A program made the translations under genes and the position numbers. From a virus: DNA of 20,494 nucleotides. Every line of letters begins with the position of its first letter. Within the stretch, counting starts at the first letter, position 1. Below the pieces are notes generated by a model that did no database searches, was not told where the DNA came from, and saw nothing but the letters and a program-made list of their open reading frames with translations. The stretch lies in IMG/VR virus record IMGVR_UViG_3300037541_000509, positions 1-20,494 of that record. One strand, 5' to 3'. This document shows, in pieces, positions 15,674-19,377 of the stretch.

Positions 15674-15889
15674 ATGGAAATAGAAAAAAACATTCCAATA
15701 CCTAACACATCAGGTCGAGGCAGAAAGACTGAATATGGTTTGCCTGATATGGAAGTGGGTGATTCGTTTTTCGTAAAGGGTGAGAATAGCAAGTATTTAT
15801 CTAAGATATTCTACCAAAGAAAAAAGAAGAATTACAAACTAACAGCAAGAACCTACCCGGATGGAGTAAGGATTTGGAGAAAAGCGTAA
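15674..15889 (+). CDS. Small early protein of unknown function (71 aa)
   Basis: The start is the ATG at 15674; upstream only a TTG at 15650 is in frame. The protein begins MEIEKNIPIPNTSGRGRKTE, then has MEVGDSFFVKGENSKYLS and ends YPDGVRIWRKA. The pattern (short N-terminal IPIP segment, GDSFFV strand, basic end with G-V-R-x-W-R) recurs in small phage proteins as I remember them, but no function is known to me. It is basic, with no membrane segment. It is the first plus-strand gene, with a probable promoter before it; the next promoter overlaps its 3' end. A DNA-binding or regulatory role is possible but unproven. Confidence 0.6.
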   Translation: MEIEKNIPIPNTSGRGRKTEYGLPDMEVGDSFFVKGENSKYLSKIFYQRKKKNYKLTARTYPDGVRIWRKA

Positions 15890-15903
15890 TTTAATTACCT
15901 TTG
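15873..15903 (+). promoter_or_regulatory. Perfect Bacteroidota promoter of the replication operon
   Basis: TTTG (15873-15876), exactly 19 bp, then TACCTTTG (15896-15903), matching the TTTG-N19-TAnnTTTG consensus of the Bacteroidota primary sigma factor. The -33 box lies inside the end of the 71-aa gene. Transcription would start near 15910 and give a leader of about 97 nt before the initiator ATG at 16007. Confidence 0.8.
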
Positions 15904-15913
15904 TTTTAAGTTT

Positions 15914-15999
15914 GAGTCGCAGCAAACTAAAAACATAAAACACTAGCCCTGTTGAATGGTGCGAGACTGCGACCTCCCCATTCTTCGGGGCATTTTTTT
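15914..15999 (+). promoter_or_regulatory. Structured 5' leader with alternative terminator/anti-terminator (attenuator candidate)
   Basis: Four pairings can be read. Stem 1: GTCGCAG (15916-15922) with CTGCGAC (15967-15973), 7 bp perfect. A nested stem: CACTA (15941-15945) with TGGTG (15957-15961). Terminator: CCCC (15976-15979) with GGGG (15987-15990), then a T7 run at 15993-15999. Alternative: GAATGG (15954-15959) with CCATTC (15978-15983), 6 bp perfect, which excludes both the nested stem and the terminator. GCCC (15946-15949) can also pair with GGGC (15988-15991). The layout is that of an attenuator or riboswitch-like switch ahead of the replication genes. The ligand or trigger is unknown, and no known riboswitch class was recognised. 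Confidence 0.55.
15976..15999 (+). terminator. Leader terminator in front of the initiator gene
   Basis: CCCC, a 7-nt loop, GGGG, then CA and seven T. The 4-bp GC stem is short but the T-run is strong. It lies between the promoter and the initiator ATG, so it must be read through for the operon to be expressed. Confidence 0.55.
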
Positions 16000-16006
16000 C
16001 ACAAGT

Positions 16007-16726
16007 ATGAACACAGGACAAATAGTAAAAGCCAAGTCTGAAAGAGACTTTACAATGTTGAGTAATAAACTACTCCAAGACTGCACATTAACAATTGAAG
16101 AAAAGGGACTTTTGGTCTACCTTCTTAGTTTGCCTTCTGATTGGGTTCTTTATAAGAAGAACTTACCCGAGAAGACTGGAGAGTCTAAGGGAACAATAGA
16201 TCGTGTATTTAAACAGCTTCAAGAGAAGGGGTATATTATATCTGTCAAGGTAATTGATGTGGAGACAAAATTGTTTAAAGGATGGAATCATATTGTTTAC
16301 GAAATACCGATATTATCGGAAACCGACATTCGGGAAACACCGACATCGGCTTTTACCGACCTCGGTCAAAGTATGCCTATACAAATACTAAATACTAATA
16401 CAAATAATAATATTAATACAAATACTAATATAGGGAAAGCACGTTTTTCTCCTCCAAGTTTAGATGAGGTAAAGGCATTCTTCAGAGAAAAGGGGTATCG
16501 TGAGGATGTGGCTATAAAAGCATACAACTACTACAGCGATGGTAATTGGTGTGATAAGAATAATAAACCGGTTAAGAATTGGAAGTTAAAAATGCACATT
16601 TGGTTTAGAGATGAAAACAAGATACAAGAAGTTAAGCTAAAGGTGAGGACAGCATTTGGAGATATTGTTGAAGTAACTAAGCAACAATATAACTCAGCAG
16701 AACCAGGATACTATAAACAAATATAA
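16007..16726 (+). CDS. Replication initiator with N-terminal winged helix (239 aa)
   Basis: The start is set at the ATG at 16007 (MNTGQIVKAK), because the in-frame ATG at 15956 lies within the terminator leader. Residues about 10-95 form a winged-helix domain: LTIEEKGLLVYLLSLPSDWV, then LPEKTGESKGTIDRVFKQLQ, with the turn near GESKGT and the wing after GYIISVKV. Residues about 122-142 are a low-complexity Asn/Thr linker. Residues about 147-205 hold a DnaD-like/phage initiator C-terminal motif (PSLDEVKAFFREKGY, NYYSDGNW, VKNWKLKMHIWF). Such proteins bind origin DNA and load helicase. The linker and the segment before it are encoded by the iterons and AT-rich stretch proposed as the origin, as in lambda O. 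The helicase gene starts 2 bp downstream. Confidence 0.8.
   Translation: MNTGQIVKAKSERDFTMLSNKLLQDCTLTIEEKGLLVYLLSLPSDWVLYKKNLPEKTGESKGTIDRVFKQLQEKGYIISVKVIDVETKLFKGWNHIVYEIPILSETDIRETPTSAFTDLGQSMPIQILNTNTNNNINTNTNIGKARFSPPSLDEVKAFFREKGYREDVAIKAYNYYSDGNWCDKNNKPVKNWKLKMHIWFRDENKIQEVKLKVRTAFGDIVEVTKQQYNSAEPGYYKQI
16307..16432 (+). other. Candidate replication origin: four palindromic iterons plus AT-rich element
   Basis: Four CCGA-n-TCGG palindromes lie inside the initiator gene: 16307-16319 (5-nt centre), 16323-16333 (3-nt centre), 16340-16349 and 16356-16365 (2-nt centres). Starts are spaced 16, 17 and 16 bp. Directly downstream, 16377-16432 has no G except at its last positions and only a few C, and contains a 13-bp direct repeat ATACAAATACTAA. 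Iterons beside an AT-rich unwinding element within the initiator gene is the lambda ori/gene O arrangement. Confidence 0.65.
16379..16428 (+). repeat. 13-bp direct repeats in AT-rich element
   Basis: ATACAAATACTAA occurs exactly at 16379-16391 and 16416-16428 (37 bp apart), with related AATACTAATAC and AATAATAATA units between. It codes for the Asn/Thr linker of the initiator. Confidence 0.7.
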
Positions 16727-16728
16727 CA

Positions 16729-18480
16729 ATGGACAACTATCAAAAACTTACAGCACTCGGCATTGAGTGTAAAAATACATCGACTCAACAAAAAGTAAAC
16801 TGTCCATTCTGCAAAGACATTAGGTCGAATAAAAGAGACAAGTCTCTTAGCGTCAATGTAGAGTTGGGTGTATATAAATGCCACTACCCAAATTGCGAGG
16901 CATTTATGGGTAAAAGCGTCTCATCATTTGAGCGAAAGCCTGAGTACATACTTCCGGTTTCAAAACTGCAAAAAGTTAGCGACAAAGTTTTGTCATGGTT
17001 TGAGTCGAGAGGAATATCCAACAACACATTGCTTCAATTTAAGGTTACAGAAGAAGATGCATACTTTCCGCAAGTACAAGAAAATAGGAAGGCAATATGT
17101 TTTAACTACTTCAGAGGACCGGATCTCATTAACATTAAATATAGAGACGCAGCCAAAAATTTTAAGATGGTTAAGGATGCGGAACTCATCATGTATAATC
17201 TGAACGCAATAGAGGGCTATAATTGGTGTGTAATTGTCGAAGGGGAGATGGATGCCTTATCGATGCATGAAGCTCAAATTTACCCTGTTGTAAGCGTTCC
17301 TAATGGGGCAACAAAGGGTAATCAAAACCTTAAGTATCTCGATAACTGTATTGACCACTTCAAAGACAAGGATAAAATAATCATATTTACAGACAACGAT
17401 TCATCTGGAATCTCTTTAAGAGAGGAGTTAGCTAGAAGGTTGGGTAAAGAAAGGGTTTGGTATATAAACCCAATAGAGGGGTGTAAGGATGCCAATGATA
17501 TCTTAATCAATTATGGAGTAGAGGCAATTCAGAAAGTAATTGCAGAGAGTTACCAAGTGCCAATAGAAGGAATAGAGAAAGTACATGATGTAAAAGACAA
17601 GATACTTGACATATACACGAATGGATTTCCACATGGACTGAAGGTAGGATTTTCTGACTTTGACGATCATATGAGTTTTAGAGGTGGCGAATTTACTATA
17701 ATCACCGGAACTCCCAATGCAGGTAAGTCAACTTTTTTGAGCAATGTACTTGTCAGATTAGCTTCAAAACATGGTTGGAAGATAGCTATGTTTTCTCCCG
17801 AAAAACAACCTACCGAAATCCTATTCTCAGAATTAGCCGAGATATATATCGGAAAGTCATTCTCTTCCTATAACCAGGTTTTAAAGATGTCTAGGGAAGA
17901 ATTACAAAAGGCAGAAGACTTTGTAGATGAGAATTTCTTCTTTATGAAGATTGATGAGATAGATGTGACCATTGATGGGATACTTGCCAAAGCATCTGAA
18001 TTGGTTCAAAGAAATGGTATAAACTGTCTTGTAATTGATCCTTGGAATTATGTTGAGCATAAGTACGAAAGAGGCACTAATGAGACTCAGTACATATCAG
18101 AGGCTCTTACTAAGATAAAAAGATTTAAAGATAGATTTGGAGTCCATGTATTCGTAGTTGCCCACCCGACAAAGATTAGAAAGGAGAATGGGTCATATGT
18201 TGTACCAACACTATATGACATTGCAGGGTCTGCCCATTTCTTCAACAAGTGCGATAATGGGTTTGTTGTATATAGAGACTATGCTACCGGTCAAACCAAA
18301 GTGTATATTCAGAAAATTAGATGGTCATTCATTGGGAAAGTGGGGGATTCTAACTTCATGTATGATGTGAGTAACAAGAGATTTACTAGTATCATGGATG
18401 ACAAATACTCATTCAATCCTATAAGTGATTACGAGCAATTACAAGACGATATTACATACGATGAAAATATACCATTCTGA
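16729..18480 (+). CDS. Bifunctional primase-helicase, T7 gp4/Twinkle type (583 aa)
   Basis: The replicative primase-helicase that unwinds the fork and, through its N-terminal half, may make primers. Zinc-binding domain: C25-x2-C28 and C51-x4-C56. TOPRIM primase fold: VEGEMDALS (E171, E173, D175) and TDNDSSG (D222, D224, G227). RecA-like helicase: Walker A GTPNAGKST (327-335, K333), Walker B LVIDPWN (D437), a sensor His at 479 in VVAHPTK, and a candidate arginine finger near KIRWSF (528-533). The size is close to T7 gp4 (566 aa). The last residues, DDITYDENIPF, form an acidic tail ending in Phe. It lies 2 bp after the initiator and overlaps the next gene by 20 bp. Very confident for the fold; primer synthesis is inferred from the intact TOPRIM acids. 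Confidence 0.93.
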   Translation: MDNYQKLTALGIECKNTSTQQKVNCPFCKDIRSNKRDKSLSVNVELGVYKCHYPNCEAFMGKSVSSFERKPEYILPVSKLQKVSDKVLSWFESRGISNNTLLQFKVTEEDAYFPQVQENRKAICFNYFRGPDLINIKYRDAAKNFKMVKDAELIMYNLNAIEGYNWCVIVEGEMDALSMHEAQIYPVVSVPNGATKGNQNLKYLDNCIDHFKDKDKIIIFTDNDSSGISLREELARRLGKERVWYINPIEGCKDANDILINYGVEAIQKVIAESYQVPIEGIEKVHDVKDKILDIYTNGFPHGLKVGFSDFDDHMSFRGGEFTIITGTPNAGKSTFLSNVLVRLASKHGWKIAMFSPEKQPTEILFSELAEIYIGKSFSSYNQVLKMSREELQKAEDFVDENFFFMKIDEIDVTIDGILAKASELVQRNGINCLVIDPWNYVEHKYERGTNETQYISEALTKIKRFKDRFGVHVFVVAHPTKIRKENGSYVVPTLYDIAGSAHFFNKCDNGFVVYRDYATGQTKVYIQKIRWSFIGKVGDSNFMYDVSNKRFTSIMDDKYSFNPISDYEQLQDDITYDENIPF

Positions 18481-18871
18481 TCCGGCACTACAATTAGCAT
18501 TACGACAACTCGCAATAACAAAGTATAAAGATGGTGAATTAATAGGGTCTAAAGAAGACTATTTAGAGAATATTGAAGCTGTTTATATCTCTGTTAATAA
18601 AAATTATGATAAAATTTTAGAAGTTTTATTTGCATTTTGTGAGAAAAATGTTAGATATTTGCGAAAGCATAATTTAATAGAACAAAAAGTAAGCGAAGAA
18701 ATAATACTGAAGGCAAAGAAAAGAACTTGTAGGGAGATGGGAATATCTAAACCGGATGCAAGTGAGAAATATAAAAACAAATACCTTCAGAACCTTTATA
18801 AACTTGTTTACTGGGAGTTCATTAAGACACACACAATAGAAGAAGTAAAAGTTAAATTTAAAACAATATGA
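18461..18871 (+). CDS. Unknown protein in the replication operon (136 aa)
   Basis: The start is the ATG at 18461 (MKIYHSDPALQL), overlapping the helicase end by 20 bp. The frame extends upstream to 18425 but only inside the helicase. The protein is largely helical and basic, with PALQLALRQLAITKYKDGEL near the start and a Lys-rich region (KYKNKYLQNLYKLVYWEF) near the end. It has no known motif and two Cys. Its stop overlaps the next ATG (ATGA), so it is translated together with the DnaA-like gene. A replication accessory role, such as helicase loading, is conceivable from context but not supported by any motif. Confidence 0.5.
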   Translation: MKIYHSDPALQLALRQLAITKYKDGELIGSKEDYLENIEAVYISVNKNYDKILEVLFAFCEKNVRYLRKHNLIEQKVSEEIILKAKKRTCREMGISKPDASEKYKNKYLQNLYKLVYWEFIKTHTIEEVKVKFKTI

Positions 18872-19377
18872 AAACAAAATCAATTCACTTCCTGGACATA
18901 TTGGAATATGTGCCGGATTCAAAGAAAAATCAATTCATTACTGACTTGGTTGTTTATGTCCCACACATTCAAGCTGAGGCTGAGAAGTATAAAAACATTG
19001 TACATGACGTAAACTTTGGCAAAGAACGTACTGAATACATAAACTCAATGCGTAAAACAAGCAGGGAGATATGGAACAGCGATGACACATCGAGAAGAGA
19101 TTTGAAAAATATACAATCTCGTCAAATGTTGTATTACTTTTTATATAACACATTGCCATTATCTTATGCAGAGGTTGGAGGTTATTTCGATAAGGATCAT
19201 TCAACAGTTATACATGGAATTAAAAGATTTACCTCAGACATGGAGACGTCTTTAAGAACTAGATTAATGGTTGAGTTCTTTGTAACAAAAATGGAGGAAA
19301 ATGGTTACAGACAGCCAAGAAGAGCATATGAATTATTAATGAACAACATTGAAGTTTATGGAAATAACAATCAATAA
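18868..19377 (+). CDS. DnaA domain IV-like DNA-binding protein without AAA+ domain (169 aa)
   Basis: Residues about 80-121 match the DnaA C-terminal DNA-binding domain: LKNIQSRQMLYYFLYNTLP, then SYAEVGGYFDKDHSTVIHGI (99-118) and KRF, including the DHSTVIH signature that contacts the DnaA box. Residues 1-75 are helical and charged and are not a DnaA AAA+ ATPase: there is no Walker A or B, and the protein is about a third of DnaA length. It may bind DnaA-box-like sites in phage or host DNA, either to direct replication or to compete with host DnaA. It overlaps both neighbours (ATGA upstream, 20 bp downstream). Domain identity is confident; the biological role is inferred. Confidence 0.82.
   Translation: MKTKSIHFLDILEYVPDSKKNQFITDLVVYVPHIQAEAEKYKNIVHDVNFGKERTEYINSMRKTSREIWNSDDTSRRDLKNIQSRQMLYYFLYNTLPLSYAEVGGYFDKDHSTVIHGIKRFTSDMETSLRTRLMVEFFVTKMEENGYRQPRRAYELLMNNIEVYGNNNQ

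Follow-up and report, generated by a model that had tools for sequence, protein, structure and literature searches.

The DNA analysed here (the window) is a stretch of 20,494 nt, positions 1 to 20,494 of the IMG/VR virus record IMGVR_UViG_3300037541_000509. It carries a replication operon whose first gene encodes a replication initiator or DnaD-like helicase loader and whose second gene encodes a DNA primase/helicase. Downstream of the latter, positions 18868-19377 encode a 169-aa protein with a DnaA C-terminal DNA-binding domain (PF08299), and genes annotated as DnaA protein are found at a similar place in phi19:1 and phi10:1. The operon is preceded by a structured leader, and the features of the region are as follows.

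15674..15889, plus strand: upstream open reading frame of 71 aa, weak match to DUF7303
15873-15876 and 15896-15903, plus strand: leader promoter of the Bacteroidota type, TTTG, 19-nt spacer and TACCTTTG, perfect match
15909..15928, plus strand: P1, the 5' hairpin, with stem 15909-15914/15923-15928 and loop 15915-15922, from the fold and pairing conservation
15916..15922, plus strand: L1, kissing word GTCGCAG in the P1 loop, from its pairing with L2 in 24/24 distinct window-type leaders
15946..15991, plus strand: PT, the terminator hairpin, with loop 15966-15973, from the fold and pairing conservation
15946-15951/15986-15991, 15954-15959/15978-15983, 15961/15977 and 15963-15965/15974-15976, plus strand: helices of PT
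15967..15973, plus strand: L2, kissing word CTGCGAC in the PT loop, from the alignment and loop geometry
15993..15999, plus strand: U7 tract of the terminator, from the sequence
16007..16726, plus strand: first gene, replication initiator/DnaD-like helicase loader, 239 aa, matching phrog_186 and replication-initiation families, with HTH_36 below cut-off
16729..18480, plus strand: second operon gene, DNA primase/helicase, 583 aa, from family matches

The promoter before the initiator gene (15873-15903) had been described as perfect in an earlier note on this DNA, and its elements and spacing confirm this; the stop codon of the 71-aa open reading frame falls within its spacer. The region 15900-16010 folds to -34.3 kcal/mol, better than 200/200 dinucleotide shuffles (z -3.88), in the order P1, PT, an A, the T7 run and the initiator ATG at 16007. 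An in-frame ATG is also present at 15956, within the terminator hairpin, and would extend the initiator to 256 aa. The complementarity of GTCGCAG (15916-15922) and CTGCGAC (15967-15973) had been taken for a 7-bp closing stem. The complementarity stands; as L1 lies in the P1 loop and L2 in the PT loop, one hairpin loop pairs with the other, which makes this a kiss and not a closing stem.

Other elements of the proposed switch were assigned differently in this study. The T7 run lies before the ATG as stated, while the short CCCC/GGGG hairpin presumably meant by the terminator of the earlier note (15976-15979/15987-15990) is possible in the window at -5.9 kcal/mol, compared with -24.9 kcal/mol computed for the long PT hairpin; as a conserved terminator it was rejected, 94.8% of its cells being paired in window-type leaders with no both-sided change. 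The 6-bp complementarity of 15954-15959 with 15978-15983 is also present, and forms the upper helix of the minimum-energy PT instead of a stem excluding the terminator. It covaries with the terminator to which it belongs, and was rejected as an antiterminator; no competing antiterminator structure was found in the leader. Since this stem lies within the very terminator it had been proposed to exclude, the scheme of mutually exclusive pairings is not supported. The nested hairpin with a GCCC loop, reconstructed as 15938-15941/15950-15953, was rejected as not conserved, with 53.8% of its cells paired in window-type leaders and no both-sided change.

Covariation among homologues, by which the earlier note had proposed to judge the leader, was counted in alignment A3, comprising 24 distinct window-type leaders; as the distinct leaders are mutually related, counts of leaders here and below are not counts of independent events. 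The kiss is paired in all 24, with both-sided changes at 3 of its 7 pairs and one-sided changes at none (0): C-G is replaced by A-U in 11 and in 10 sequences, and A-U by G-C in 10. Paired cells amount to 97.8% in P1, where 3 of 6 pairs show both-sided changes, and to 94.8% in PT, against only 38.6-52.5% in slid controls. Minimum-energy folds that assumed no kiss were computed for 47 distinct leaders, the set remaining after L008, L043, L044, L049 and L063, in which no leader was visible, had been dropped beforehand from 52 distinct upstream regions; in 38 of these 47 the L1 and L2 loops are perfectly complementary along 6-8 nt. L004 has a 5-nt loop match in the fold and 7 nt by sequence; in the 8 other leaders the matching word lies in a terminator bulge or multiloop outside the hairpin loop, or the loop is partly paired. 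The leader thus has the two closed hairpins, paired loops and compensatory change that characterise a kissing-loop interaction.

The leaders of relatives differ widely in sequence, the promoter, P1, PT, the U-tract and the start codon being common to them. More than 30 different kiss words occur between leader groups, among them GTAGAGG, GAACCAC, GAGCAAC, GGGAAAC, GTAAGAG, GTGGCTT and GTCGGAT. Within the cultured genus Lillamyvirus, the kiss is GTGAGAAG/CTTCTCAC in morran9-1 and GTGAGACG/CGTCTCAC in lillamy9-7, and three further words, GTGGAAC, GTGGAAAG and TGTCCAC, come from loci related by the FCOV-F26 initiator. A permutation test was applied to 31 kiss words that had been preselected for a match of at least 6, so that it shows merely that the kiss pairs are not interchangeable.

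As in an intrinsic terminator, a G+C-rich hairpin followed by a U-tract lies between the promoter and the first gene. This position makes transcription attenuation the leading reading, and the earlier proposal of an attenuator-like leader for the replication operon is supported by the promoter, conserved terminator-type hairpin with U-tract and first gene, retained in many phages. A ligand-binding riboswitch, for which it could be said that loop-loop contacts occur in known purine and cobalamin aptamers, is scarcely credible here. By inspection the leader groups have no common unpaired core, and in an Rfam search of the window and 15 loci no family reached its gathering score. Because only pairs are conserved between groups and Rfam gave no match, a metabolite riboswitch is not supported, and the earlier suggestion of ligand sensing finds no backing. 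Membership of an Rfam family was rejected on the same grounds. The best weak match was the 23S-methyl RNA motif (RF01065), which like the leader has a 5' hairpin and then a terminator; unlike that motif, whose structure line is shown without a kiss, the leader has one, and the match scores 22.3 bits where the gathering score is 50.

The geometry of the kiss bears on its role. It adjoins the 3' stem strand in 73/76 L1 loops and 72/76 L2 loops, leaving 0-3 spare nucleotides on its 5' side within the loops, and for 21 of 23 kiss types most leaders cannot prolong it into the P1 or PT stems. A loop-loop helix of 6-8 bp, flush with the 3' strand, is the geometry required by two closed hairpins in contact. 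The respect for stem borders and the 3'-flush position therefore fit both hairpins being closed, and argue against the kiss as an invading antiterminator. Such a role, in which L1 would capture the sequence of the PT loop while the 3' arm is still to be transcribed and so slow closure of the terminator, and in which a factor blocking the kiss would cause termination, would be in line with pseudoknot-free folds, where L1-L2 pairing is already preferred in transcripts ending at 15973-15983. Once the outer arm is out PT prevails, being far more stable when completed, and the antiterminator role is considered unlikely.

To determine how widespread the leader is, relatives were collected as 77 IMG/VR loci by the initiator and 77 by the primase/helicase; an alignment of 13 initiators provided further relatives, of which the best 80 of 364 were taken, with some repeats. 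Among 98 distinct upstream regions from initiator relatives, 93 show the layout of promoter, P1, PT and kiss before the replication operon: 73 were positive by a fold-based scanner, 19 were recognised by eye, and in L192 the leader stands one gene farther upstream. The five regions without a leader (L008, L043, L044, L049 and L063) count against the attenuator reading; L227 was set aside, its upstream stretch being too short. The scanner missed 19 of the 92 leaders lying immediately upstream of the initiator, as well as those of phi19:1, phi10:1, elemoA_14-9B and lillamy9-7. For these 23, a script confirmed both complementary words, 45-99 nt apart, and the stems were judged by eye. Scanner matches at W 13045, on the minus strand of L063 and in L146 are probably due to chance.

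Six cultured phages carry the leader: morran9-1, lillamy9-7, elemoA_14-9B, FCOV-F26 and the Cellulophaga phages phi19:1 and phi10:1. It was not found in the examined stretches of phiST, Bacteroides C1_85S2P, Parabacteroides PDS1 and Alistipes AS73P1, nor in those of Maribacter Panino and Cellulophaga Calle_1, which hold mostly structural genes; Panino gave one weak 6-nt match in a search for the architecture. A kissing leader with the words TTGCAGG/CCTGCAA at L413 1879-1980 lacks an obvious TAnnTTTG promoter, and perhaps belongs to a phage of another host group.

The architecture search covered 250 sources (1.78 Mb) and returned 145 places, compared with 9 in shuffled copies; when 6-nt kisses were used and a promoter was demanded, the counts were 145 and 13, respectively. 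In the window, searched on both strands, the place is single. The architecture is not enriched in host-family chromosome: stretches totalling 1.19 Mb, taken from four genomes of the same family as a Christiangramia MAG, contained 7 places, none leader-like by eye. A window-type model without the kiss matched leaders in L036, L023, L201, phi19:1, L242, L006 and L192, and found a second leader in FCOV-F26, whose kiss was seen afterwards. The same model matched a kiss-less hairpin-terminator ahead of ninG in phi19:1 (L233:2996-3063), which counts against the attenuator reading. Model R1 of the window type gave 0 matches in 199 genomes of one family, a result that, as the set included no positive control, carries no weight. 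A DNA-similarity search of the phage collection and a search of genome contigs for initiator relatives gave no lead. An Rfam tRNA match at L023 1110-1218 spans 109 nt for a model of 71 positions, corresponding to a tRNA gene with an insertion.

The hairpin and U-tract sit between the promoter and the first gene irrespective of the type of that gene, and a TAnnTT[TC]G element lies at most 70 nt upstream of P1 in 67/76 distinct leaders. The first gene is an initiator of another type in L082 and L107, with L088 and L101 similar to L082; in L108 a gene for a MUG113/T5orf172 protein directly follows the leader, and L110 and L112 resemble it. An HNH endonuclease gene stands first in L192 and a DNA methyltransferase gene in L151. 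In these five loci, L108 to L112, L192 and L151, the arrangement is as if mobile genes insert between the leader and the operon. The leader thus occurs with other upstream genes and before other first genes, which leaves the proposed sensing by the 71-aa product without support, and this protein was rejected as a general partner of the leader. Two phages, FCOV-F26 and L217, possess a second leader with a different kiss word heading a NUMOD4/HNH homing-endonuclease gene; the words are GTAGTGC/GCACTAC in FCOV-F26 and GTACCAG in L217. The second kissing leaders, each heading a NUMOD4/HNH gene and having its own kiss word, are located as follows.

L217, 1250-1347: second kissing leader
L247, 40331-40430: second kissing leader

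The distance between PT and the start codon raises the question of translational control, in which the kissed hairpin beside the start codon would govern ribosome loading, as the loop-loop pseudoknot of the antisense-regulated IncB/IncI repZ leaders does. As in the phage leader, a 5' hairpin loop in repZ pairs with a downstream element just before the start of a replication initiator; unlike repZ, where control is translational, the phage leader carries a U-tract terminator. PT ends 6-21 nt ahead of the first ATG in 74/76 scanned leaders, which suits control of ribosome loading, as does the retention of the hairpin and kiss in a few leaders with a poor U-tract (L011, L053, L201 and L205). The latter leaders count against the attenuator reading, and suggest that strong termination may not be needed everywhere. 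Speaking against translational control are the spacing of some 50 nt that separates PT from the start codon in cultured phages, the several unrelated kinds of first gene, and the strong U-tract of most leaders, though the scanner located places by a T-run and so selected for it. On balance, translational control is improbable. A stretch like ATAGTTATAGGTAATCTTAAAACC, common to Lillamyvirus and Cellulophaga phages, lies between terminator and start codon, at about 818-845 of L079 and ahead of the first gene in L238, L233 and L235.

Antisense control of plasmid replication offers another precedent. In pT181, attenuation of repC by an antisense RNA acts on a replication initiator. Loop contacts are tied to premature termination in pT181 and in icsA/RnaG, as they would be in the leader, and the pT181 target is of the same kind. 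Shigella icsA/RnaG, which also uses an antisense RNA, combines kissing loops with premature termination (PMC5394118). The kiss words vary between phages like incompatibility loops. A counter-transcript that pairs with the loops and drives termination is nevertheless very unlikely: L1 and L2 are complementary inside one RNA, and unlike these systems the leader has no conserved antisense promoter, one of the TAnnTTTG type, the only type sought, being found over 10/76 leaders against 6/76 control regions, one of them with a -33 element.

The leader might also act at a replication origin, as DNA hairpins or as primer RNA. The GC skew turns near 16 kb, which is equally explained by the change of coding strand there, and close to this turn three copies of the iteron-like repeat ATACAAATACTAA, with 18-19 nt spacing, lie at 16379-16428 inside the initiator gene, where an origin is possible. 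The leader itself is found strictly in one orientation, with a promoter and U-tract, and its second copies head homing-endonuclease genes, which makes such a role highly improbable. A further reading takes the terminated RNA as the product, a kiss-stabilised phage small RNA that would act in trans, while read-through would supply the operon. The promoter adjoining P1 and the terminator would yield a compact RNA of about 90 nt, but each loop is occupied by the other, no sequence outside the pairs is conserved between groups, and the leader stays tied to operon heads, so that a trans-acting product seems quite improbable.

Attenuation of transcription around an intramolecular kissing complex, as predicted from the sequences, is accordingly favoured with slightly better than even confidence. 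Comparison of the leaders shows P1, PT and the kiss, their order, the promoter and the gene context. The promoter would start the transcript near 15909, and P1 would fold first, its loop displaying GUCGCAG. The emerging CUGCGAC would pair with this loop, and the arms of PT would close round the 7-bp kiss helix. The resulting P1-kiss-PT rod, with the U7 tract at its end, is taken as the terminating state. A share of transcripts would then stop in the cell at about 15995-15999, short of the initiator ATG and with a length of roughly 90 nt, while read-through would allow expression of the initiator and primase/helicase. The kiss would brace the terminator and not weaken it, so that terminator strength would vary with the availability of the P1 loop, and read-through would most likely be set by a factor that opens the complex, reading the kissing shape and not its sequence. 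Recognition of shape is suggested by the different kiss words kept by two leaders in one genome. The leader probably decides whether the DNA-replication genes of flavobacterial phages and their relatives are switched on. A wider proposal is tentative, and rather doubtful at present: the leaders may constitute a new class of regulatory RNA in Bacteroidota phages, recognised solely by shape, with a 7-bp intramolecular kissing complex on a terminator, placing replication operons and homing-endonuclease genes in a phage regulon under one factor that reads any kiss.

Such recognition has a parallel in the ColE1 RNA I/RNA II kissing complexes, which form 7-bp loop-loop helices and are bound by the shape-specific Rop protein. 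As in the leader, the ColE1 helices are of 7 bp and their sequence drifts while pairing is kept; unlike ColE1, the leader has its kiss within one RNA and on a terminator, with no known protein. Attenuators with intrinsic terminators resemble the leader in having a terminator-type hairpin with its U-tract placed after the promoter and ahead of the first gene; in the leader no antiterminator pairing was found, and an upstream hairpin engages the terminator loop instead. HK022 put-type antitermination RNAs, which act on RNA polymerase so that it passes later terminators, were considered as a further comparison. In searches of open-licence PMC papers, no title or abstract opening described such a leader. 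Every element is familiar, and within the literature searched a conserved class of phage leaders with this arrangement is apparently undescribed.

A terminator braced through conserved pairing of its loop with that of an upstream hairpin would represent, as far as the searches reach, a leader class not described before. The leader stands before the replication operon in many environmental phages and in cultured Flavobacterium and Cellulophaga phages, and is therefore testable now. The leaders may supply natural kiss pairs of differing sequence, may lead to an RNA-binding factor with specificity for the shape of kissing complexes, and may reveal how Bacteroidota phages time their replication.
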